From DAOVGU01 sp030637775 [NCBI: bacterium] (GTDB taxonomy: Bacteria > Ratteibacteria > UBA8468), in contig DAOWFY010000108.1 of assembly GCA_030637775.1 (NCBI GenBank), positions 1 through 10,376 of the forward strand: 10,376 bases of DNA, in the 5' to 3' direction. Shown in pieces: positions 2,438 through 10,368 of the stretch (its first letter is position 1; each line of letters opens with the position of its first letter). Below the pieces are notes generated by a model. It was not told where the DNA came from and searched no databases. It saw nothing but the letters and a program-made list of their open reading frames with translations. The translations under genes were made by a program, and so were the position numbers.

Positions 2438-3328
2438 ATGATGGATAGAACCAAGGAGTTAGAAAAGGAAAACCAGAGGTTGAAAAGAAGGAATGAACTT
2501 CTGGGTAAGGTTATCCAGCGGCTGAACTCTACCCTCCAATTACCGGTGGTGATGGAGTATGTGATTGGGGAGGTAACCAAAACCATCAAAGCGGTAACCA
2601 GCACCATTTATACCATTGCCAAGGATGGGAAGATTGAGTTTTCCTATATCTATGGGGCAAAGGAAGAGATAAAAAAGAGACTGCAGAAGATGCGATTGGA
2701 ACCCGGCCAGGGGATTGAGGGCAAGGTAATAAAGACGGGTCAATCTTACATTTCTCTGGATACTCAGGATGATCGCGATTTCTATAAAGGGATCGATAAA
2801 GAGATCGGGTTTAAAACCAAATCGCTTATCTGTGTTCCCCTAAAGGTTAAGGATGGGATTATTGGTGCTCTTCAGGTGATTAATAAGGAAGGCGAGGATG
2901 AGAAATTTAATCAAGATGATGTTGAATTATTGGAGGAGATTGCCAGCCATGCCGCATTAGCCATCAGGAATGCTCAATTGTACCAAGAGGTAGAAAATTG
3001 GCGGGAGTTTAATGAGGCGATTATCGAGAGTATCAATGAGGGGGTTTTTGTTGTTGACCGGGCGCTAAAGGTTATTACGGGAAACAATGGCTTAGAGGAG
3101 CTGAGCGGTGGGCTCTATACCAAGGAATATTTGAAAGGAAGGGAAGCCCGGGAAATCTTTCCTTATTTAAATTTAGAGTCTGTATACAGGGAAGTTTTTC
3201 AAAGCGGGAAGGTCTTCCAGCAGTCAAGTACCGGAGGAAGGCTTCTCAATTTTAAGTTCATTCCCCGCAAGAGCAAAAATGGAGAGGTAGAGGAGATTAT
3301 CGTCCTGGTAAATAGGGCCTCAGAATAA
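2438..3328 (+). CDS. GAF-PAS sensor protein without an output domain
   Basis: A 296-residue cytoplasmic protein, first gene of the operon. Residues 1-28 are a charged coiled coil (KELEKENQRLKRRNELL). Residues about 29-185 form a GAF domain, with GQGIEGKV, a GFKTKSLICVPL strand and IGALQVINK, followed by the usual signalling helix AIRNAQLYQEVE. Residues about 190-296 look like a PAS domain (IIESINEGVFVVDR, then the last strand EEIIVLVNR). No kinase, GGDEF, phosphatase or DNA-binding domain follows, so it probably works through protein contacts. The start is ATG 2438 or the adjacent ATG 2441. The sequence AAGGGA (2431-2436) is better spaced for 2441 but overlaps the likely transcription start. 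The GAF domain closely resembles that of the phosphatase encoded at 5049-6353. The stop codon overlaps the pilB start by one base, suggesting translational coupling. The ligand is unknown. Confidence 0.8.
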   Translation: MMDRTKELEKENQRLKRRNELLGKVIQRLNSTLQLPVVMEYVIGEVTKTIKAVTSTIYTIAKDGKIEFSYIYGAKEEIKKRLQKMRLEPGQGIEGKVIKTGQSYISLDTQDDRDFYKGIDKEIGFKTKSLICVPLKVKDGIIGALQVINKEGEDEKFNQDDVELLEEIASHAALAIRNAQLYQEVENWREFNEAIIESINEGVFVVDRALKVITGNNGLEELSGGLYTKEYLKGREAREIFPYLNLESVYREVFQSGKVFQQSSTGGRLLNFKFIPRKSKNGEVEEIIVLVNRASE

Positions 3329-5046
3329 TGGCGCTATATCAAAAACAAAAAACCCTTACCGATATCCTGGAGGAAGAGGGTCTTTTAAACAAAAAACAGA
3401 TTGAGGAATTAACCGAGGAGACCCTCCGTAAGAAAAGAAAAAAGGGAGAACTGTTCAAGACTTTAGTGCAGAAGTATGGACTGAAAGAGGAAGATCTCGC
3501 TTACTCCCTGGCCAAGCAGTTTGGTTGCCCCTATTTCGATCTTAAGAAGCATAAGGAAAAACCTGAGGCCGAACTCTTAAAGAAGATACCAAAATCCTGG
3601 GCGAAACGTCATCTTGCCCTTCCCCTGAAAGTTGAGAATAATGAGCTTACTATAACCATGGCCGATCCCACCAATATTTTGGTCCTGGATGAATTAGCGG
3701 TCAGAACAGGAATGAAGATTCAGAAGGTGGTAAGTACCTCTTCAGATATTTTAGAGGCCATTGAGACTTTCTATTTAGGAAAGAGTGCGGTTGACATCGG
3801 CGAGGTTATGGAGGAAATCGATGCCCGCTATCTCCAGGTGGAAAAAATCGAGATCGAGGATAAGGATGTTACCGAGGAGAGTGCCCCGATCGTCAAATTA
3901 GTAAATAGCTTTATCGCTGAGGCCAGGAAAAGAGGGGCCAGTGATGTTCATATTGAGCCCACAGAGACGGGAATGATTGTTCGCTATCGCATCGATGGAA
4001 TTCTAAAGGATATCTATAATATCCCCAAGCATGCCCAGAATGCACTTATCAGCCGGGTTAAGATTATGACCGATTTAGATATTGCCGAGCACCGCCGACC
4101 CCAGGATGGGAGAATTAACTTCAAAAAGTATGGCAATTTGGATATTGATCTTAGGGTAGGTATCAGTCCTATGCTTTACGGAGAAAAGATTGTGATGAGA
4201 ATTCTGGATAAGGCAGTAAGCATTATGAATCTGGATCGCATGGGTTTTTCCCAGGATAATTTGGAGAGGTACCGGGCGATGATCCACAAACCTTACGGAA
4301 TGATTCTTCATGTGGGACCAACAGGAAGCGGCAAAACCACCACACTCTATTCAGCATTAAGTGAGATAAATTCCCGGGATGTCAACATTCAAACTGCCGA
4401 AGATCCGGTCGAGTATACCCTTTCCGGCATCAATCAACTTCAGGTCCGGTCAAATATCGGGGTTACCTTTGCCAGTGCTCTGCGCTCCTTTCTCCGACAG
4501 GACCCCGACATCATCATGGTCGGGGAGATCAGGGATTTCGAGACAGCCCAGATTGCCGTTGAGGCTGCGCTCACCGGCCATTTAGTCTTTTCCACTCTTC
4601 ATACCAATGATGCGGCGGGAACGGTGGTTCGGCTCCTGGATATGGGGATCGAGCCCTTTTTGGCTGCATCTTCAATCCTCTGTGTCGTTGCCCAGAGGTT
4701 GGTAAGAAGAATCTGTGAGAGTTGTAAGGTCAGCTATCTCGCGACCAAAGAGGAACTGGCAGGTTTGGGTTTGACAATCAAGGAAGATAAGATAAAACTT
4801 TACAAAGGAAAGGGCTGCCCTGACTGTGATGGAACCGGCTATAAGGGTCGTTTAGGCATCCATGAGGTTTTAACAATGAATGAGGAACTCAAAAACCTTA
4901 TCCTGAAAAGAGCCTCCAGTGATGAGATCAAGGAGGAGGCAATGAGGTCCGGGATGAAAAGTCTCTATGAGGATGCTTTGGTTAAAATGGCTTCAGGCAT
5001 CACCACCCCCCAGGAGGTAATGAGGGTCACGATGGAGGCCGTTTAA
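3328..5046 (+). CDS. pilB: Type IV pilus/type II secretion assembly ATPase (PilB/GspE family)
   Basis: A cytoplasmic hexameric ATPase that powers pilus extension or pseudopilus assembly. At 572 residues it has the usual length. Residues about 1-150 are a MshEN/T2SSE N-terminal domain (LTDILEEEGLL, FGCPYFDL, MADPTN). In this domain the residues I associate with c-di-GMP binding are not obvious. The ATPase core contains a DVHIEP strand, the RIDG segment, Walker A GPTGSGKT (330-337), Walker B DPDIIMVGEIRD (from 392) and the His box STLHTNDA. The zinc-binding tetracysteine motif is CESC (463-466) plus CPDC (497-500), which marks PilB/GspE and is absent from retraction ATPases such as PilT. The ATG overlaps the upstream stop (TAATG). 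No pilin, PilC or secretin gene is in the window, so PilB versus GspE cannot be decided from context. It is unusual in sitting between two GAF signalling genes. Confidence 0.93.
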   Translation: MALYQKQKTLTDILEEEGLLNKKQIEELTEETLRKKRKKGELFKTLVQKYGLKEEDLAYSLAKQFGCPYFDLKKHKEKPEAELLKKIPKSWAKRHLALPLKVENNELTITMADPTNILVLDELAVRTGMKIQKVVSTSSDILEAIETFYLGKSAVDIGEVMEEIDARYLQVEKIEIEDKDVTEESAPIVKLVNSFIAEARKRGASDVHIEPTETGMIVRYRIDGILKDIYNIPKHAQNALISRVKIMTDLDIAEHRRPQDGRINFKKYGNLDIDLRVGISPMLYGEKIVMRILDKAVSIMNLDRMGFSQDNLERYRAMIHKPYGMILHVGPTGSGKTTTLYSALSEINSRDVNIQTAEDPVEYTLSGINQLQVRSNIGVTFASALRSFLRQDPDIIMVGEIRDFETAQIAVEAALTGHLVFSTLHTNDAAGTVVRLLDMGIEPFLAASSILCVVAQRLVRRICESCKVSYLATKEELAGLGLTIKEDKIKLYKGKGCPDCDGTGYKGRLGIHEVLTMNEELKNLILKRASSDEIKEEAMRSGMKSLYEDALVKMASGITTPQEVMRVTMEAV

Positions 5047-5048
5047 CT

Positions 5049-6353
5049 ATGGAAGAAGTGAAAGAACTGAAATCCTTGAAAAAAAGGCTGGCCAATCTTT
5101 CCAGCATCATCAAGGTGAATGAGATTATTAATTCCACCCTGAACCTCAAGGAGTTGTTGGCAACAATTATGGAAATTTCCCAAGAGGTGATGAGGGTAGA
5201 GGCTGCCTCTTTGATGCTCAAGGATGAAAAGACAGGAGAATTGATCTACGAAGTTGCTTTAGGAGAGAAGGGTGAAGAGATCAAGGAAAGGTTCAGATTA
5301 AAGAAAGGCCAGGGAATTGCCGGCTGGGTTGCGGAAAAGGAGAAACCCCTTTTGGTCCCTGATGTTAGAGAGAATCCTCGTTTTGACAATCGCATCGATC
5401 AAGCCACTGGATTTAAGACAAGATCTATTTTGGCTGTCCCGATGAAGGTGAAGGGGAAGCTCATTGGTGTTTTGGAGGCAATTAACCCTCTAAAAGAGCC
5501 TTTTGGAGAGGAGGAGATAGAGCTTTTTACGACTTTTGCTAACCAGGCGGGGATTGCCATTGAGAATGCTCGTCTCCATCAGTTTCTTTTAGATAAGCAA
5601 AGGGTGGAGGAGGAGTTGCGTATCGCCAGATTAATTCAGAAGAATATCCTTCCCAAAAAATATCCAATAGTGAAAGGAACCGAATTCTGGGCACGAAATA
5701 TCCCCGCTGAAGGAATCAGTGGGGACTTCTATGATTTTATTGAACTGTCCCCAGAGGAGATTGGTATTGTCATTGGCGATATCTGTGGAAAGGGCATCCC
5801 CGCAGCCCTGTCTATGGCCAAAACCATCGGTGATTTTCGTGTGGTGGCTTCCCTTCATAATCGGGTGGCTTCCCTTCCTGAAAAATTGAGCAGAACAATG
5901 ACCACGATGAATAACATCCTTGCCGAAGGAAGTACTTTGGGTCTATTCGCCACCCTTATCTATTCAGTTCTCAACACAAAGAAGGGAACTTTAACCTATG
6001 TCAATGCTGGCCATCCCCTCCCTCTAATCAGGCACCAGACGGCTGAGATAGAATTGCTGAATGGCAAAAAAGGGTTGCCGTTAGGGATTTTTTCCGGTCT
6101 TTCTTTCGAAGAAGAAGAAATCAAATTGAAGGAAGGGGATCTTCTCCTTCTCTATACCGATGGATTGGTTGAGGCAAGAGGAAAGGAGGGGAGAAGATTT
6201 TCTACGGAGATACTCTATAAATTAGTAAAGGAAGGTCCGAATGATGCCGCCGGTCTGGGGGAGGAGATAGTTCAGAAAATAAAACTCCTCTCACTTGGTA
6301 AACCACCCTCCGATGACCTCACCGTAGTGACGATTAAGGTAAATAAACTGTGA
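5049..6353 (+). CDS. GAF domain PP2C-family serine phosphatase (RsbU/SpoIIE-like)
   Basis: Predicted Mn2+/Mg2+-dependent phosphatase that removes phosphate from a STAS anti-anti-sigma protein in a partner switch. It has 434 residues. An N-terminal coiled coil precedes a GAF domain (about 30-175: GQGIAGWV, GFKTRSILAVPM, IGVLEAINP). A linker helix (RIARLIQKNILP) leads to a PP2C/SpoIIE catalytic domain at about 215-434. Metal-binding aspartates are present in GDFYDF (Asp226), GDICGKGIPAA (Asp244), LYTDG (Asp371) and DDLTVV (Asp422/423); NAGHP starts at 319. The domain therefore looks active. The start is ATG 5049, two bases after the pilB stop, with GGAGG at 5034-5038 inside pilB as ribosome binding site. 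The stop overlaps the next gene as GTGA. The GAF domain presumably controls activity; its ligand is unknown. Confidence 0.92.
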   Translation: MEEVKELKSLKKRLANLSSIIKVNEIINSTLNLKELLATIMEISQEVMRVEAASLMLKDEKTGELIYEVALGEKGEEIKERFRLKKGQGIAGWVAEKEKPLLVPDVRENPRFDNRIDQATGFKTRSILAVPMKVKGKLIGVLEAINPLKEPFGEEEIELFTTFANQAGIAIENARLHQFLLDKQRVEEELRIARLIQKNILPKKYPIVKGTEFWARNIPAEGISGDFYDFIELSPEEIGIVIGDICGKGIPAALSMAKTIGDFRVVASLHNRVASLPEKLSRTMTTMNNILAEGSTLGLFATLIYSVLNTKKGTLTYVNAGHPLPLIRHQTAEIELLNGKKGLPLGIFSGLSFEEEEIKLKEGDLLLLYTDGLVEARGKEGRRFSTEILYKLVKEGPNDAAGLGEEIVQKIKLLSLGKPPSDDLTVVTIKVNKL

Positions 6354-6802
6354 AGAATATCCAGAATATCAGACTTTCCCTTCCCAGCCATCCAAGATTT
6401 TTAAGTGTCATCAGAATGGCTATTTCTCAGGTGGCCGGGGGAATGAGATTTGATGAAGAGGAGGTTAAAAATATAGCTTTAGCCGTTGACGAAGCTTGCA
6501 CTAACGTGATTAAATATGCCTATCAGAGTAAGCATAATAAGAAAATTATTTTAACGGCCACGGTTAAGAGGGATAGGCTGGTGGTAACCATCAGAGATTT
6601 TGGCAAAAAGTCCAATCCTGAAAGTTTTAAGCCTCGACCTTTAAAGAAGGTAAGACCAGGGGGATTGGGCCTTTACTTTATTAAGAAGATTATGGATGAG
6701 GTTAAGTATGATACCTCCTCTAAATTAGGCACAACGCTTCGGTTAATTAAATATAAAAATGAAAATAGAAGAAAGAAGAGAAAAGGATGTGGTTATCGTT
6801 GA
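6350..6802 (+). CDS. RsbW/SpoIIAB-like ATP-binding serine kinase (anti-sigma factor family)
   Basis: A GHKL-fold kinase of the partner-switch type, expected to phosphorylate the STAS protein encoded next. It has 150 residues, the normal size. The N-box DEACTNVIKYAY (Glu48, Asn52), G1 motif IRDFGK (Asp83) and G2 motif GGLGLYFIKK (from 104) form the ATP site, and GTTLRLIKY ends the fold. The start is GTG at 6350, overlapping the phosphatase stop by four bases (GTGA). A short AAGG lies about ten bases upstream. The last 15 or so residues (basic, KNENRRKKRKG) are encoded in a 44-base overlap with the STAS gene and lie beyond the usual domain end. No sigma factor gene is nearby, so its binding target may be something else. 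Confidence 0.9.
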   Translation: MKNIQNIRLSLPSHPRFLSVIRMAISQVAGGMRFDEEEVKNIALAVDEACTNVIKYAYQSKHNKKIILTATVKRDRLVVTIRDFGKKSNPESFKPRPLKKVRPGGLGLYFIKKIMDEVKYDTSSKLGTTLRLIKYKNENRRKKRKGCGYR

Positions 6803-7097
6803 CCTTTCAGGAGAGGTTGACTTCTATAATTCCTCGAAAGTCAGGGAAAAATTCATCAATTTAGTCAAGCAGAAAAGAAAAGCAATATTAATAAACCTTG
6901 GTGAAGTAACCTATATTGATAGTTCTGGCCTGGCGACATTGATCGAACTAATGCAAAAGCTAAATGGATATGGCGGTAAATTAAAACTTACCGGGTTAAA
7001 CCAATCGGTCAGAAATATTTTTGAGGTTTCTAAATTAATAGATGTCTTCTCCATTTACGAGGAGGAAGAGGAGGCTTTAAAGACATATAACCGATGA
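6759..7097 (+). CDS. STAS domain protein: anti-anti-sigma factor (RsbV/SpoIIAA-like) or MlaB-like Mla subunit
   Basis: A 112-residue single STAS domain. It starts with the typical strand VVIVDLSGEVDF and carries YIDSSGL with Ser55/Ser56, the site phosphorylated in SpoIIAA and RsbV. It ends with LTGLNQSVRNIFEVSKL and an acidic tail. ATG 6759 was chosen because it gives the standard STAS N-terminus. No good Shine-Dalgarno precedes it, so translation is probably coupled to the kinase gene. Two readings fit the context. Upstream are the phosphatase and kinase that act on such proteins. Downstream, mlaE starts inside its stop codon (ATGA), and in known Mla systems a STAS protein, MlaB, binds the ATPase MlaF. 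It could serve both roles. Assignment to the STAS family is secure; the choice between roles is not. Confidence 0.88.
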   Translation: MKIEERREKDVVIVDLSGEVDFYNSSKVREKFINLVKQKRKAILINLGEVTYIDSSGLATLIELMQKLNGYGGKLKLTGLNQSVRNIFEVSKLIDVFSIYEEEEEALKTYNR

Positions 7098-7885
7098 GAA
7101 ATTTCTGTGGTTATTTAGGGCGAAGTTTAAATTTAGCCTTAAGACATTTAGGCAGCATCCTTTCTCTCTTTCGGCAGGCCCTCTACTGGATTTTTATCGC
7201 TCCCTTCCGCGGTAAACCGGTAAATAAGAAAGATTTCATTGGCCAGTTAGAACTGATTGGAGTAAAATCCCTCCCGATTGTTAGTTTTGTTTCTTTCTTC
7301 TTCGGTATCACTCTGGCGATGCTTACTGCCTATCAGTTAAGAATCTTCCAATCGGAGATCTTAGTGGGCGCTTTAGTTGGAGTATCGTTTTCCCGGGAAT
7401 TAGGCCCTTTGCTTACAGCCATTGTGGTAGCAGCAAGGGTAGGAGCAGCGATGACGGCTGAACTGGGAACAATGAAGGTCTCCGAGGAAATAGATGCTTT
7501 AGAGACGATGGCCATCAGACCGGTTCGCTTTCTCATTGCCCCCAGACTTTTGGCCATTTTGATTATGCTTCCCTGTTTAACCATCATTGCCAATATTGTC
7601 GGAATTTTAGGGGGTTATCTCATCGCCAAACTTAGCTTAGGACTTGATACCTATTACTATTTCTCTCAAACCTTTAAGGCAATGGAGGCAAAGGACCTCT
7701 TTACCGGACTCATCAAAAGTTTCTTTTTCGCCGGAATTATTGGAATGGTCGGCTGCTACCAGGGATTTATTGTCAGAGGGGGGGCCGAAGGGGTGGGAAG
7801 GGCAACTACCACCTCGGTGGTCAGTTCCATTTTCCTGATCATTGTTACTGACTGTTTCTTTAATGCTTTGTTCTATTTTATTTAA
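7094..7885 (+). CDS. mlaE: MlaE-family lipid transport permease
   Basis: Inner-membrane permease of the Mla (MCE) phospholipid transport system, normally a dimer that binds MlaF in the cytoplasm and MlaD in the periplasm. It has 263 residues, the normal length. An amphipathic N-terminal region (about 1-50) precedes hydrophobic segments near 58-80, 90-115, 150-182, 203-228 and 238-263. The family signature EEIDALETMAIRP with the following APRLLA lies near 130-152, and FSRELGPLLTAIVVAARVGAA is also characteristic. The ATG overlaps the STAS stop by four bases (ATGA), which argues for translational coupling and a functional link. Confidence 0.93.
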   Translation: MRNFCGYLGRSLNLALRHLGSILSLFRQALYWIFIAPFRGKPVNKKDFIGQLELIGVKSLPIVSFVSFFFGITLAMLTAYQLRIFQSEILVGALVGVSFSRELGPLLTAIVVAARVGAAMTAELGTMKVSEEIDALETMAIRPVRFLIAPRLLAILIMLPCLTIIANIVGILGGYLIAKLSLGLDTYYYFSQTFKAMEAKDLFTGLIKSFFFAGIIGMVGCYQGFIVRGGAEGVGRATTTSVVSSIFLIIVTDCFFNALFYFI

Positions 7886-7888
7886 CAA

Positions 7889-7905
7889 AGGGGTCAGTGA
7901 CCCCT
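7889..7905. repeat. Palindrome between mlaE and mlaF
   Basis: AGGGGTCA (7889-7896) and TGACCCCT (7898-7904/5) form a near-perfect palindrome around a single G. It fills most of the 28-base gap between mlaE and mlaF. Its left arm, with the preceding AAA, is the only Shine-Dalgarno-like sequence (AAAGGGG, 7887-7893) before mlaF, and lies about 20 bases from the ATG. It resembles dispersed palindromes of REP type, but only one copy is visible here. Confidence 0.65.
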
Positions 7906-7913
7906 ACCATGCC

Positions 7914-8711
7914 ATGATTATTGTAAAGAACTTAGTTAAGAGCTTTGATAACCGAAAGATCCTTGATAACATTAATCTGAAAATAGAGAAGGGAAAAATT
8001 ACCGTAATTATGGGGGGTAGCGGCTGCGGCAAGAGTACGCTTTTGAGGCATCTGATTGGATCGATAAGACCCGATAGTGGTGAAATCCTTATTGCCGGAG
8101 AAGACATTACCAAAATGGACGAGGATTCCTTAGACAACTTAAGGAAAAGATTTGGCATGCTTTATCAAAGCGGGGCCCTCTTTAATTCAATGAGTGTCGG
8201 CGAAAATGTTGCTCTTCCTTTAAGGGAACATGCCAAACTCGACAACAAAATCATTGAGATAATAGTTAAAATGAAGTTGGAACTTGTTGGTCTCACCGGC
8301 TTCAAGGATCTTTTCCCCTCTCAGATAAGTGGGGGAATGAAAAAGCGAGTGGCTCTGGCAAGGGCGCTTGCTTTAGATCCGGAAGTAGTCTTTTATGACG
8401 AGCCAGGCGCAGGCTTAGATCCAGTTACCCGAGCTGCGATAGATAAGTTGATCATCGACTTAAGCAAAAAATTAAATATTACCTCTGTCGTGGTGACCCA
8501 TGAGATGAAGAGCGCATTCTCGATTGCCAACAAAATCGCAATGCTCCATGAAGGAAAAATCATTATCTATGACTCGGCAACCGAGATTAAAAATTCTCAA
8601 AATGAGGTTGTGCAACAATTTATTGCTGGTTCTCCCGAGGGACCTCTCACGCGGCGCCGCACCGGCAAAGAATATCTTGTAACTCTGACTGGTGTAAGTA
8701 AACACAGATGA
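7914..8711 (+). CDS. mlaF: MlaF-family ABC transporter ATPase
   Basis: Cytoplasmic ATPase that energises the MlaE permease. From ATG 7914 it has 265 residues. It contains Walker A GGSGCGKST (34-42), the Q-loop LYQSGALF, the signature ISGGMKKR (Ser139), Walker B VVFYDEP (Asp162, Glu163) and the H-loop VVTHEM (His196). The MKKR variant of the signature region is typical for this family. ATG 7914 gives the normal start MIIVKNLVKSF. The frame is open further upstream to an ATG at 7842, but that extension would overlap mlaE and encode unrelated residues partly from the palindrome. The C-terminal residues after GPLTRRR (about 20) look like a non-conserved tail. Confidence 0.93.
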   Translation: MIIVKNLVKSFDNRKILDNINLKIEKGKITVIMGGSGCGKSTLLRHLIGSIRPDSGEILIAGEDITKMDEDSLDNLRKRFGMLYQSGALFNSMSVGENVALPLREHAKLDNKIIEIIVKMKLELVGLTGFKDLFPSQISGGMKKRVALARALALDPEVVFYDEPGAGLDPVTRAAIDKLIIDLSKKLNITSVVVTHEMKSAFSIANKIAMLHEGKIIIYDSATEIKNSQNEVVQQFIAGSPEGPLTRRRTGKEYLVTLTGVSKHR

Positions 8712-8712
8712 A

Positions 8713-8791
8713 TGTGGAAATATCAAGGTCTGAAGACCTTTCCCACAATACCCCTGATTTAATCAGGGGGTGGGAGGCATCTCCTGATGCC
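8713..8791. repeat. Three consecutive hairpins between mlaF and mlaD
   Basis: The 104-base gap holds three inverted repeats in a row. The first is AAGGTC (8725-8730) with GACCTT (8735-8740) over a TGAA loop, and TGTGG (8713-8717) pairing with CCACA (8743-8747) outside it. The second is CCCCTGATT (8751-8759) with AATCAGGGG (8761-8769). The third is GGCATC (8776-8781) with GATGCC (8786-8791). None is followed by a T-tract, so they are not intrinsic terminators. They may be repeat elements or mRNA structures that tune mlaD expression. Confidence 0.65.
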
Positions 8792-8815
8792 GATAAGAAA
8801 TAGAGGAGAAATATT

Positions 8816-9556
8816 ATGGCTGAATATTTGAAGTCGGAGATCAAATCAGGGATAATGATCGTTAGCTGCATATTAATTTTGGTTGTCCTTATCTTCTTAG
8901 TGGGAGGATTAGAGCTCTTTAAGAAAGAATCTTCCTATAAAATTTATTTTAAGTCAATTGCCCAACTGGGGGAAGGTGCTCCCGTTACCTTTGCCGGTCA
9001 TAAGATAGGGCGAATAAAATCAATCGCTATTATCCCGGAAAAGGATAAACCGGTTGAGATTATCATCAGCCTGCCTTCAAAGATAGAGATCAGGGCCGAC
9101 TCCTTAGCGGAAATTAAGGCCACCGGAGTAATCGGCTTAAAATGCTTGAGTCTCTCTCCCGGCTCTAAAGATGCGCCGGTTCTTCCTTCCGGAAGTATTA
9201 TCAAGGAAAAAGAACCGCTGGACATTCAAGAGATTATCAATGCTGCCGGCAGCTTAGGAGATAATGTAGCCGAGACAATTGCCTCCATTAAAGCAACCTC
9301 TGATAGATTTCGCTCCGTAGCCGAGAAAGTTGATGATGCTAAATTAGGTCAATTATTGAAAAATATTAACATCATGGTTGAGGAAAACAGAGAAGATATC
9401 AGGGAGATAATTAAGAATTTAAAAGATACTACTGCCAATGCCAGGGAGTTTACGGCGATCATTAAGAAACGTCCCAGTCGGCTCATCTGGAGAACCAGGG
9501 AACGGAGAGAGAGAAAAACGGAAATAGAAAAGCTAAGGAGGCCCAGAGTACCATGA
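8816..9556 (+). CDS. mlaD: MlaD-family MCE domain protein
   Basis: Inner-membrane-anchored periplasmic substrate-binding protein of the Mla system; MCE proteins form hexameric rings that pass lipids. It has 246 residues. One N-terminal transmembrane segment (about 13-33, IMIVSCILILVVLIFLVGG) is followed by an MCE domain at about 38-120, with GAPVTFAGHKIGRI near 53-66 and ATGVIGLKCLSL. The rest is helical (ETIASIKATSDRFRSVAEK and EDIREIIKNLKDTTANA) and ends in a basic tail with RPSRLIW. The start ATG 8816 has AGGAG at 8804-8808, seven bases upstream, the best ribosome binding site in the operon. The stop overlaps the lipoprotein start as ATGA. Confidence 0.93.
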   Translation: MAEYLKSEIKSGIMIVSCILILVVLIFLVGGLELFKKESSYKIYFKSIAQLGEGAPVTFAGHKIGRIKSIAIIPEKDKPVEIIISLPSKIEIRADSLAEIKATGVIGLKCLSLSPGSKDAPVLPSGSIIKEKEPLDIQEIINAAGSLGDNVAETIASIKATSDRFRSVAEKVDDAKLGQLLKNINIMVEENREDIREIIKNLKDTTANAREFTAIIKKRPSRLIWRTRERRERKTEIEKLRRPRVP

Positions 9557-10368
9557 AAGGTAAAAATAGGGACACATCCCATTTTTTGAGACACTTCCCT
9601 ATCTGTCTGTGCAGAAAAATTAGGATGTGTCCCTATTTTTTGGCTTTAGCATTTTTAGCCGGTTGTGCTTCCGCGCCCCATATTATTAAATATGAAATTG
9701 AACCTCCTGAGGAAAAAATTGAAAAGGATATCGGTATCGCCGTTTTGGCCTTTACCGATAAAAGACCCTCTGAAGAAAAGGAGGGCTTAAAAGGAAAATT
9801 GCTGATCTTCAGCACAAGGGATAAGAACTTTGCTCAGCCACCCGCGATTATGATTCCCCAGCACCTAACCAAGGAGTTAGTAGCCTGGGGTCTCAGGGCA
9901 GAGGATGTTTCTACCCGAGAAGAGGCAGGGACTGCTGATTATAGAGTTGAAGGAGAGCTTTTGCATTTTCAGGCGGTTATCAAACTGAATAAGGCCACCT
10001 TTATTCCTTACTTAGGCAATATCACTACACTGTGGGCAAAGGATGAGTTTGTTATTACCCTTTCCATGCGGGTAAAACTGTTCCTCAAAAATTCTGATGA
10101 ACCAATTTTTGATGAAGAATTTGATGTTTCCGAAGATTTAAAATTACCCACCGGTCTCCTCAATCTTGCCCGCTACAAACGCGGTCTTCGCCATAAACTA
10201 AAAGTTCTTGACCTGGCCACAGGAGAGGTTTTGGCTAAAGTTCGGGAGCGAATCATTCAGGAGACTCGGAAGTTTCCTTCAGCGGCACGTTTGTCAGTCC
10301 CAGCGAGGCTGACTGCACTCTCGTTCCTCCTCGCTCATCCTTCGGATACCGTGCCCGCTCGTCGGTAA
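9553..10368 (+). CDS. Putative lipoprotein of the Mla operon
   Basis: A 271-residue predicted lipoprotein. The lipobox is LAGC with Cys38, preceded by the hydrophobic run YFLALAFLAG. The mature part begins with an Ala/Pro-rich segment and a strand-rich domain (IGIAVLAFTDKRPSE, DYRVEGELLHF, VITLSMRVKLFLK) of the kind seen in periplasmic auxiliary lipoproteins of MCE transporters or YajG-like proteins. I cannot place it more precisely. ATG 9553 overlaps the mlaD stop (ATGA), the expected start in this operon. However, residues 4-29 are encoded by an inverted-repeat element (9562-9640), giving an unusually long, charged N-terminal region before the hydrophobic core. An internal ATG at 9625 would shorten it to a signal lacking basic residues. 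The last 32 or so residues, from PSAARLSV on, are encoded in a GC-rich stretch that looks foreign to the gene. Confidence 0.75.
   Translation: MKGKNRDTSHFLRHFPICLCRKIRMCPYFLALAFLAGCASAPHIIKYEIEPPEEKIEKDIGIAVLAFTDKRPSEEKEGLKGKLLIFSTRDKNFAQPPAIMIPQHLTKELVAWGLRAEDVSTREEAGTADYRVEGELLHFQAVIKLNKATFIPYLGNITTLWAKDEFVITLSMRVKLFLKNSDEPIFDEEFDVSEDLKLPTGLLNLARYKRGLRHKLKVLDLATGEVLAKVRERIIQETRKFPSAARLSVPARLTALSFLLAHPSDTVPARR
9562..9640. mobile_element. MITE/REP-like inverted-repeat element inside the lipoprotein 5' end
   Basis: An 18-base perfect inverted repeat, 9562-9579 (begins AAAAATAGGGACAC) with 9623-9640, flanks 43 bases that themselves hold weaker inverted repeats (ATTTTT at 9581 with AAAAAT at 9615; AGACA at 9589 with TGTCT at 9604). 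The 79-base unit has no coding capacity of its own and no clear target duplication. Its structure fits a small non-autonomous transposable or REP-type element. It lies between the ATGA start and the lipobox region of the lipoprotein and leaves the frame open. Confidence 0.6.
10281..10359. repeat. GC-rich palindromic segment at the lipoprotein 3' end
   Basis: AGCGGCACG (10281-10289) pairs with CGTGCC plus GCT (10350-10359, one bulged C), enclosing a smaller hairpin of CAGC (10301-10304) with GCTG (10308-10311). The span is visibly richer in G+C than the preceding gene and encodes the last residues of the lipoprotein. No T-tract follows. It may be a dispersed repeat that replaced the original 3' end. 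Confidence 0.4.

Follow-up and report, generated by a model that had tools for sequence, protein, structure and literature searches.

A probable partner switch with an MCE-type ABC lipid transporter as its output in a Ratteibacteria genome

Introduction

The MlaFEDB complex of Escherichia coli is an MCE-type ATP-binding cassette (ABC) transporter that carries a small STAS protein, MlaB. The MlaFE complex is reported not to be isolable without MlaB, and the MlaB substitution T52A to abolish ATPase activity (PMC5016091, available portion); T52E weakens binding to MlaF (PMC7367683, available portion). The regulation of MlaB is posed in that second source as an open question: phosphorylation is proposed, none has been seen on Thr52, and the portion available names no kinase (PMC7367683). 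Phosphorylation is also guessed at, likewise with no kinase named, in the available part of PMC5016091. A second group of described systems, the SpoIIAA-SpoIIAB-SpoIIE and RsbV-RsbW-RsbU partner switches, combines a SpoIIE phosphatase, a HATPase_c_2 kinase and a STAS protein with a DSSG motif. Here we describe a gene row that holds the parts of both, on a contig of DAOVGU01 sp030637775 (Ratteibacteria; assembly GCA_030637775.1, contig DAOWFY010000108.1). The window is this whole contig of 10,376 nucleotides (G000:C161), from a 1.40-Mb draft genome that is 83.5% complete. We argue that the row probably encodes a partner switch that acts on an MCE-type ABC lipid transporter, with the STAS protein as an MlaB-like subunit of MlaFED that phosphorylation would release from MlaF (transport off) and dephosphorylation would dock on it (transport on).

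Some known partner switches act on something other than a sigma factor, as the partial texts available on SypA and SiaC indicate. In Vibrio fischeri, the regulator SypE acts on the STAS protein SypA, a likeness to the present locus, but the output is biofilm formation and not a transporter. The SiaA-SiaB-SiaC-SiaD system of Pseudomonas aeruginosa is, according to the same kind of partial source, a phosphorylation pathway in which a small partner controls an enzyme rather than a sigma factor; here the effector is a diguanylate cyclase, and the likeness to SiaC is known at the level of the pathway, not of the fold or phosphosite.

STAS genes and STAS-DUF140 fusions have been noted in mce clusters (PMC1810536), in a report whose available text does not contain the word phosphatase, and STAS-MlaE fusions are also reported in the available text of PMC5016091. 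The available text of a review of STAS-only proteins (PMC8256260) never uses the word MlaB. In the open-access literature searched, we found no description of a kinase-STAS-Mla module (an earlier report is possible), nothing joining MlaB and STAS with partner switching or MlaE with SpoIIE, and no ABC transporter as the output of a partner switch.

The gene row and its relation to described systems

All genes of the row lie on the + strand, in the order FG-GAP protein, GAF + PAS protein, GspE/PilB-like ATPase, phosphatase, kinase, STAS protein, mlaE, mlaF, mlaD and putative lipoprotein. The features of the proposed switch and transporter, with the gene that follows them, are these:

5049..6353, + strand: GAF + SpoIIE (PPM) serine phosphatase, the sensor and signal input (Pfam SpoIIE 7e-45, GAF 2.6e-23)
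6350..6802, + strand, GTG start: HATPase_c_2 serine kinase, RsbW/SpoIIAB-like (Pfam 5.1e-30)
6759..7097, + strand: STAS protein, proposed phosphorylatable MlaB-like subunit (Pfam STAS 1.8e-24)
6921..6923, + strand: Ser55 codon in DSSG, proposed phosphorylation site (aligned to E. coli MlaB Thr52)
7094..7885, + strand: mlaE permease (PF02405 2.6e-79; TIGR00056 above cut-off)
7914..8711, + strand, ATG start: mlaF ABC ATPase (best NCBIfam model MlaF PRK11831, 2.1e-77)
8622..8708, + strand: MlaF C-terminal extension with Tyr254 (8673-8675) and Leu258 (alignments, predicted helix)
8816..9556, + strand: mlaD, MCE domain (PF02470 3.3e-15)
9553..10368, + strand: putative lipoprotein, 4-base overlap with mlaD (no Pfam or NCBIfam match)

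The initial annotation had claimed that a single DSSG-bearing STAS protein joins phosphatase and kinase genes to mlaE and mlaF, and the open reading frames and domain matches bear this out. The spacings it gave are exact in the reading frame coordinates (overlaps of 4, 44 and 4 bases, then a 28-base gap); the row extends beyond position 8711, where that annotation had ended, with mlaD and the putative lipoprotein gene. The program-listed mlaF frame begins earlier, at the TTG at 7842. Promoter and terminator scans gave no excess over shuffled sequence.

A MlaE permease, an ABC ATPase and an MCE protein in a single gene row identify an MCE-type ABC transporter. Like E. coli MlaFEDB, it comes with a STAS protein that has Ser/Thr at the same position and Ala after the site, and its MlaF tail matches in the positions of Tyr and Leu. 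Unlike here, mlaB stands last in mlaFEDCB of E. coli, with no kinase or phosphatase among the 11 annotated features there, and MlaB is a minimal STAS protein without the fifth strand and last helix of the module STAS (PMC7367683, available portion). None of the cut-offs for E. coli-type Mla proteins is reached (NF033618 for MlaB, TIGR04430 for MlaD, NF033619 for MlaE and NF008809 for MlaF); MlaF, whose best model is MlaF at 260 of 441 bits, has MlaF chains among its best PDB matches. The likeness to the SpoIIAA and RsbV switches lies in the phosphatase, kinase and DSSG-bearing STAS protein, whereas the module has no sigma factor in its locus and ABC lipid transporter genes stand next to it.

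Conservation of the module across phyla

Named Genome Taxonomy Database (GTDB) genomes were scanned with an alignment of module MlaE, and the best 80 of 548 confirmed relatives were taken; this selection covers the closest neighbours of the window's MlaE and is not informative on MlaE at large. In 66 of the 80, mlaE is preceded on its own strand by a HATPase gene of the module type. The remaining 14 have no detected HATPase, and all were counted as such, including L055 and L122, which a contig edge truncates, and L107, whose STAS frame is broken. The STAS gene adjoins mlaE in 74 loci, and in the other six, from Binatota and Myxococcota (L101, L112, L121, L123, L126 and L127), STAS is fused to the N terminus of MlaE. 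Five of these fusions, all but L127, were scanned; each matches Pfam STAS or STAS_2 with E no higher than 3.3e-4, and four exceed a curated cut-off. The fusions resemble the module in tying STAS to the permease; they differ in that no kinase was found upstream in any of the six and that DSSG is lost.

The 66 kinase loci span many lineages: 22 Nitrospinota, 9 Acidobacteriota, 8 KSB1, 6 Calditrichota, 5 Thermodesulfobacteriota, 4 Hydrogenedentes/Hydrogenedentota (one named Abyssobacteria), 2 Omnitrophota, 1 Glassbacteria, one each of Chlamydiae, Deferribacteres and Emcibacteraceae, and 6 labelled only as bacterium. The MlaE of the Emcibacteraceae record (L072) is nearly identical to Nitrospinota sequences and falls inside Nitrospinota on a zero-length branch, which makes its name doubtful, and it is probably a misnamed or misbinned contig. 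Over the 66 loci, the median distance between the kinase domain and the STAS domain is 29 bases. A same-strand SpoIIE gene lies upstream in 42 of them, within 600 bases of the kinase in 39.

A second sample comprised 386 genomes, drawn around the window's lineage and across the domain, and was searched with the kinase profile (E up to 1e-22). Such a kinase occurs in 73 of the genomes. Among the 30 best kinase loci, fetched one per genome from more than 100 kinase matches, STAS and mlaE lie directly 3' of the kinase in 22 and not in 8; the 22 count the window and two family relatives, and some genomes overlap the named set. For twelve of the 22, a stretch of 12-16 kb was read, and all 12 have kinase-STAS-mlaE-mlaF, with an mlaD match in eleven. 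The gene order, proposed earlier as a check in related genomes, is thus kept across many phyla in both samples. Chance adjacency was rejected, since the same order recurs across phyla.

Within the window's own class, the sample has the kinase at 1e-22 only in the window's genome (G000), in its nearest relative G001 and in G002. No STAS gene was found within 1.5 kb of mlaE in 14 further class members, nor in G003. Because other class members have no kinase or no STAS gene near mlaE, the module may have been gained by transfer in the window's family.

Two side observations concern the permease gene and its neighbours. In the module of G039, mlaE is split into two overlapping frames (L039 6689-7541), through either an assembly error or a real frameshift. 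Unusually long MlaD-like frames of 1143 and 869 residues (L103 7593-11021, UASB270; L115 7704-10310, KSB3) adjoin kinase-less STAS-mlaE-mlaF and are possibly multi-MCE proteins.

Phosphatase and kinase

The phosphatase is of the SpoIIE/PPM type with its Asp residues conserved: of the 43 module phosphatases aligned, 40 have Asp 226 and 244 and all have Asp 371, 422 and 423. These residues presumably bind metal. The kinase belongs to the HATPase_c_2 serine kinases and, as in partner switches, its N-box and glycine motifs are intact. Its best NCBIfam model is RsbW (97 of 145 bits), and a profile of 51 module kinases matches RsbW 6m36 at 5.6e-27 and SpoIIAB at 1.5e-15. Residues E48, N52, D83, G105 and G107 are invariant in these 51 kinases; we take E48 and N52 to belong to the catalytic N-box.

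The initial annotation had named the GAF domain as the signal input. A GAF domain is indeed present on the window's phosphatase, but in relatives it is one of several sensors. Ten module phosphatases were scanned: four carry GAF (L052, L083, L099, L106), three FHA + GAF (L105, L108, L125), two HAMP (L075, L086) and one PAS (L100). This variety is what would be expected if the sensor were the exchanged input, swapped while the core of kinase, STAS and transporter stays constant. In 5 of the 22 kinase loci (L145, L149, L151, L153, L155), phosphatase and kinase are fused as one GAF-SpoIIE-HATPase protein before STAS-MlaE, as confirmed with Pfam. SypE reportedly joins kinase and phosphatase parts in one protein in a like manner.

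The STAS protein and its proposed acceptor site

The STAS protein of the window scores above the cut-off of TIGR00377 (anti-sigma antagonist) and reaches just 29.2 of 90 bits with the MlaB equivalog model NF033618. DSSG is present in 66 of 66 kinase-linked STAS proteins. The STAS alignment (A5) comprises 52 of these 66 plus the window, near-duplicates having been removed, and a second alignment (A6) adds the window to 50 of the 52 loci, without L067 and L118. Ser55 aligns with Thr52 of E. coli MlaB, so that the module has Ser where MlaB has Thr, and we take its position to be that of Ser58 in SpoIIAA. In an AlphaFold2 model (predicted local distance difference test score, 93.3), Ser55 is the first residue of helix 2, a phosphorylatable-type Ser at the place typical of partner-switch STAS proteins.

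The fold of this model is close to that of SpoIIAA (Z 19.3, 1.7 A over 112 residues), and it has a strand at 98-100 and a helix at 103-108, so that it is not a minimal STAS protein like MlaB. MlaB chains were not among the 50 fold-comparison matches listed, which excludes nothing. At the sequence level, the profile of the module STAS family reaches the MlaB proteins of P. aeruginosa (8.9e-6) and E. coli (1.8e-4). Position 59 is Ala in 66 of 66 module STAS proteins and in E. coli MlaB; it is Gly in 14 of 16 other partner-switch STAS proteins, which came from 12 loci fetched for their kinases and are not a random set. The module STAS proteins also differ from these at position 63, where they have Glu. 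The initial description of the STAS protein as MlaB-like is thereby refined: Ser at the Thr52 position and Ala59 agree with it, and the fold is the complete SpoIIAA one.

Where STAS is fused to MlaE with no kinase, DSSG is replaced in 6 of 6 cases (by RSLD, NSLE, TSLE, SGLD and, twice, NGLE). A separate STAS frame beside a kinase-less mlaE in G057 (L179) carries DGAG.

Signs of STAS docking on MlaF

In 60 of 61 kinase-linked MlaF proteins, the tail from Phe236 on has 19-36 residues; the 61st is a fragment (L064, zero-length tail) and was left out of the 60-sequence comparison. An alignment (A7) of the window's MlaF with 30 hand-picked from the 61 has Tyr (29) or Phe (2) at Tyr254, and Leu (26), Ile (4) or Val (1) at Leu258. 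These two residues align with Tyr261 and Leu265 of E. coli MlaF, which have been placed in the MlaB-MlaF groove (PMC7367683, available portion). AlphaFold2 predicts a helix at 251-259 in the tail with modest confidence.

Among 24 MlaF proteins with no STAS gene in 1.5-kb flanks, 20 have tails of 2-16 residues, and L005 and L012 have tails of 19 and 22. At the thresholds used, 18 columns separate the 60 linked from the 24 unlinked sequences, including Tyr254, Leu258 and positions 116, 117 and 121. The last three fall in helix 111-124 of the predicted model, which, in our reading, is the helical subdomain bound by MlaB. The tail, the separating columns and Ala59 of the STAS protein are thus indirect signs, at the level of sequence, pointing to docking of STAS on MlaF.

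In a quick MlaE tree, built without bootstrap and omitting L001, L010 and L025 as copies of the window, L048 and L049, all STAS-linked MlaE form one clade, with a support of 99 in the Shimodaira-Hasegawa-like approximate likelihood-ratio test (SH-aLRT). A test of STAS linkage against the MlaF tail by independent pairs found one independent pair, with a tail criterion set after seeing the tails, and hence allows no statistics. E. coli MlaE lies outside the kinase-linked clade, on a long branch of unsure place; that E. coli has STAS and the MlaF tail outside the clade is a second instance, not a statistic.

Copy number of switch and transporter genes

Pfam searches of the genome found one SpoIIE match and one HATPase_c_2 match, both in this gene row, and one STAS gene, at this locus, the same single gene being found with STAS_2; as the genome is incomplete (83.5%), a further copy of any switch gene could be missing from these counts. 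A separate second mlaB gene had been named as something to look for. None was found by either STAS model, and a second mlaB elsewhere in this 83.5% complete genome was rejected.

The genome has two mlaE genes. The second sits in a row dnaB-mlaE-mlaF-mlaD with no STAS gene, and its MlaF stops without the C-terminal tail, so we rejected the possibility that the STAS protein serves this second system. A STAS-less mlaE lies directly 3' of the replicative helicase gene dnaB both here (L002, G000:C170) and in G003 (L035, G003:C148), as identified with Pfam DnaB; in G001 (L033, G001:C113), a frame of 476 residues lies at the corresponding position.

No sigma factor, of the SigB/F/G type or otherwise, is encoded in the window. 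The genome has four Sigma70_r2 proteins, one RpoD-like, one of small group-2 type (L130) and two that best match ECF-type models; the RpoD-like and group-2 proteins match the SigBFG model, both below its cut-off. A local sigma-factor circuit was rejected, there being no sigma factor in the window, and the four in the genome being two below the SigB/F/G cut-off and two nearest to ECF-type models.

Proposed mechanism

From these parts, their order, their conserved catalytic, acceptor and docking residues and their recurrence across phyla, we infer phosphorylation, docking, competition and a direction of switching as follows. The kinase would phosphorylate the STAS protein at Ser55. Phospho-STAS would then be unable to dock on the helical subdomain and C-terminal extension of MlaF, leaving ATPase activity and transport off. 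On sensing its signal through GAF, the SpoIIE phosphatase would strip the phosphate, and STAS would dock on MlaF and turn transport on. Since both would bind STAS through one helical face, kinase and MlaF would be competitors. In outline this is the hypothesis of the initial annotation, which the observations support. The assignment of unphosphorylated STAS on MlaF to the "on" state carries over the E. coli data, in which MlaFE could not be isolated without MlaB and T52E weakens binding. The direction could be the reverse, because T52A of E. coli MlaB binds without ATPase activity and the residue may do more than block docking.

Several observations weigh against a switch of this kind. The STAS protein scores far nearer to SpoIIAA, RsbV and TM1442 than to MlaB, and these scores, together with the extra strand and helix, make docking in the E. 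coli manner uncertain. At position 59, the MlaB of P. aeruginosa carries Ser. Despite the loss of DSSG, a Ser aligns with the acceptor in 3 of 6 STAS-MlaE fusions, and 6 of 8 unfused STAS proteins with no detected kinase keep DSSG (two contig-edge, one broken), the remaining two having DSAG and DTAA. Same-strand SpoIIE is missing upstream in 24 of the 66 kinase loci, in 3 of which the contig ends at the kinase. Two MlaF proteins, L004 and L021, have tails of 36 and 35 residues with no STAS gene in the 14-16 kb read, and STAS linkage and the MlaF tail change on a single branch of the MlaE tree, which within this set leaves no independent replicates. In E. coli, T52A binds and yet lacks ATPase activity, a result that its own source finds difficult to square with simple phosphoregulation, and an mlaB knockout can be rescued there by overexpressing MlaF (PMC7367683, available portion).

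On balance, we also favor a wider proposition: that a large clade of MCE-type ABC lipid transporters in many phyla is gated post-translationally by its own partner switch, with a fixed kinase-STAS pair and an exchangeable sensor-phosphatase, as a general control of membrane lipid traffic, and that the Ser/Thr of MlaB-type STAS proteins is a phosphorylation site whose kinases are found here. Beside the transporter, the gene rows place candidates for the kinase and the phosphatase together with several types of sensor, which makes the idea of MlaB phosphoregulation directly testable. Should the proposal hold, a dedicated pair of kinase and phosphatase would switch an ABC transporter through its docked STAS subunit, membrane transport would join the outputs of partner switching, and envelope lipid traffic in many uncultured phyla would be a signalled process.

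Alternative explanations

The best-surviving alternative, which we regard as unlikely, is that the STAS protein is a constitutive, structural MlaB-like subunit with no phospho-switch, the kinase and phosphatase acting elsewhere or the kinase merely binding STAS. The kinase-less STAS proteins beside or fused to MlaE agree with this, since they imply that STAS can serve the transporter without a kinase, and E. coli has MlaB with no kinase reported in the available portions of PMC7367683 and PMC5016091. Set against it, we found no other STAS protein in the genome as a target for the kinase and phosphatase. DSSG and the catalytic residues are invariant where the kinase is present; fusions without a kinase have lost the motif, though Ser still aligns in half of them.

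Less probable still is an ordinary anti-sigma-type partner switch acting on transcription, the transporter genes being either its targets or neighbours transcribed with it. The STAS protein and kinase are indeed nearest to SpoIIAA/RsbV/TM1442 and RsbW/SpoIIAB, and one of the four Sigma70_r2 proteins, the small group-2 type L130, matches SigBFG below the cut-off. However, no sigma factor lies in the window, and of the four in the genome the RpoD-like and group-2 proteins stay below the SigB/F/G cut-off and the other two best match ECF-type models. In 74 of the 80 loci the gene adjoining mlaE encodes STAS, and the other six encode a STAS-MlaE fusion; the module STAS proteins differ from those of other partner switches at positions 59 and 63, with Ala rather than Gly after DSSG-L and Glu at 63.

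That the kinase-STAS pair regulates another nearby product, such as a PilB/GspE motor or a nucleotide-signalling enzyme, is very improbable: GspE with MshEN ends 2 bases upstream and the module follows GspE in G001 too, a CHASE2-cyclase gene lies downstream in G001 and the SiaABC pathway acting on the diguanylate cyclase SiaD offers a precedent (in a partial source), but GspE is not upstream in G002, and the partner conserved across phyla is mlaE-mlaF-mlaD.

Neighbouring genes and minor observations

The genes upstream of the phosphatase are these:

1-2231, + strand: FG-GAP repeat protein, cut at the contig start (first in the row)
2438..3328, + strand: GAF + PAS protein (domain scan)
3328..5046, + strand: GspE/PilB-like ATPase with MshEN domain (ends 2 bases 5' of the phosphatase)

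The GAF + PAS protein is a possible further input to the switch. The GspE/PilB-like ATPase, whose gene is also upstream of the module in G001 (L032) and not in G002 (L034), is probably a neighbour in this genus and not part of the switch. The protein encoded at 1-2231 and one at L034 8739-9767, both upstream, are of surface type; each ends in a run of Gly and CFIATAAFGTPMAEE, after which comes a similar basic tail. This ending resembles what we take to be the CFI-box C-terminal domain.

In G001, a 281-base gap between STAS and mlaE (L032 5345-5625) contrasts with the overlap in the window, gene order being kept; by eye, the gap holds a repeat-like insert with inverted segments. The mlaF-mlaD gap of the window (8712-8815) holds an inverted repeat, CCCCTGATTTAATCAGGGG, with no T run after it. 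The lipoprotein gene at 9553-10368 has its counterpart beside mlaD in G001 (L032) and G002 (L034) too, and in L036 an ABC_trans_aux protein (PF03886, 3479-4216) lies downstream of mlaD. Downstream of the module in G001, L032 150-2162 encodes a CHASE2 + adenylate/guanylate cyclase protein by Pfam, and a frame at L034 1820-3814 in G002 looks similar by eye; these cyclase genes suggest a wider signalling cluster.

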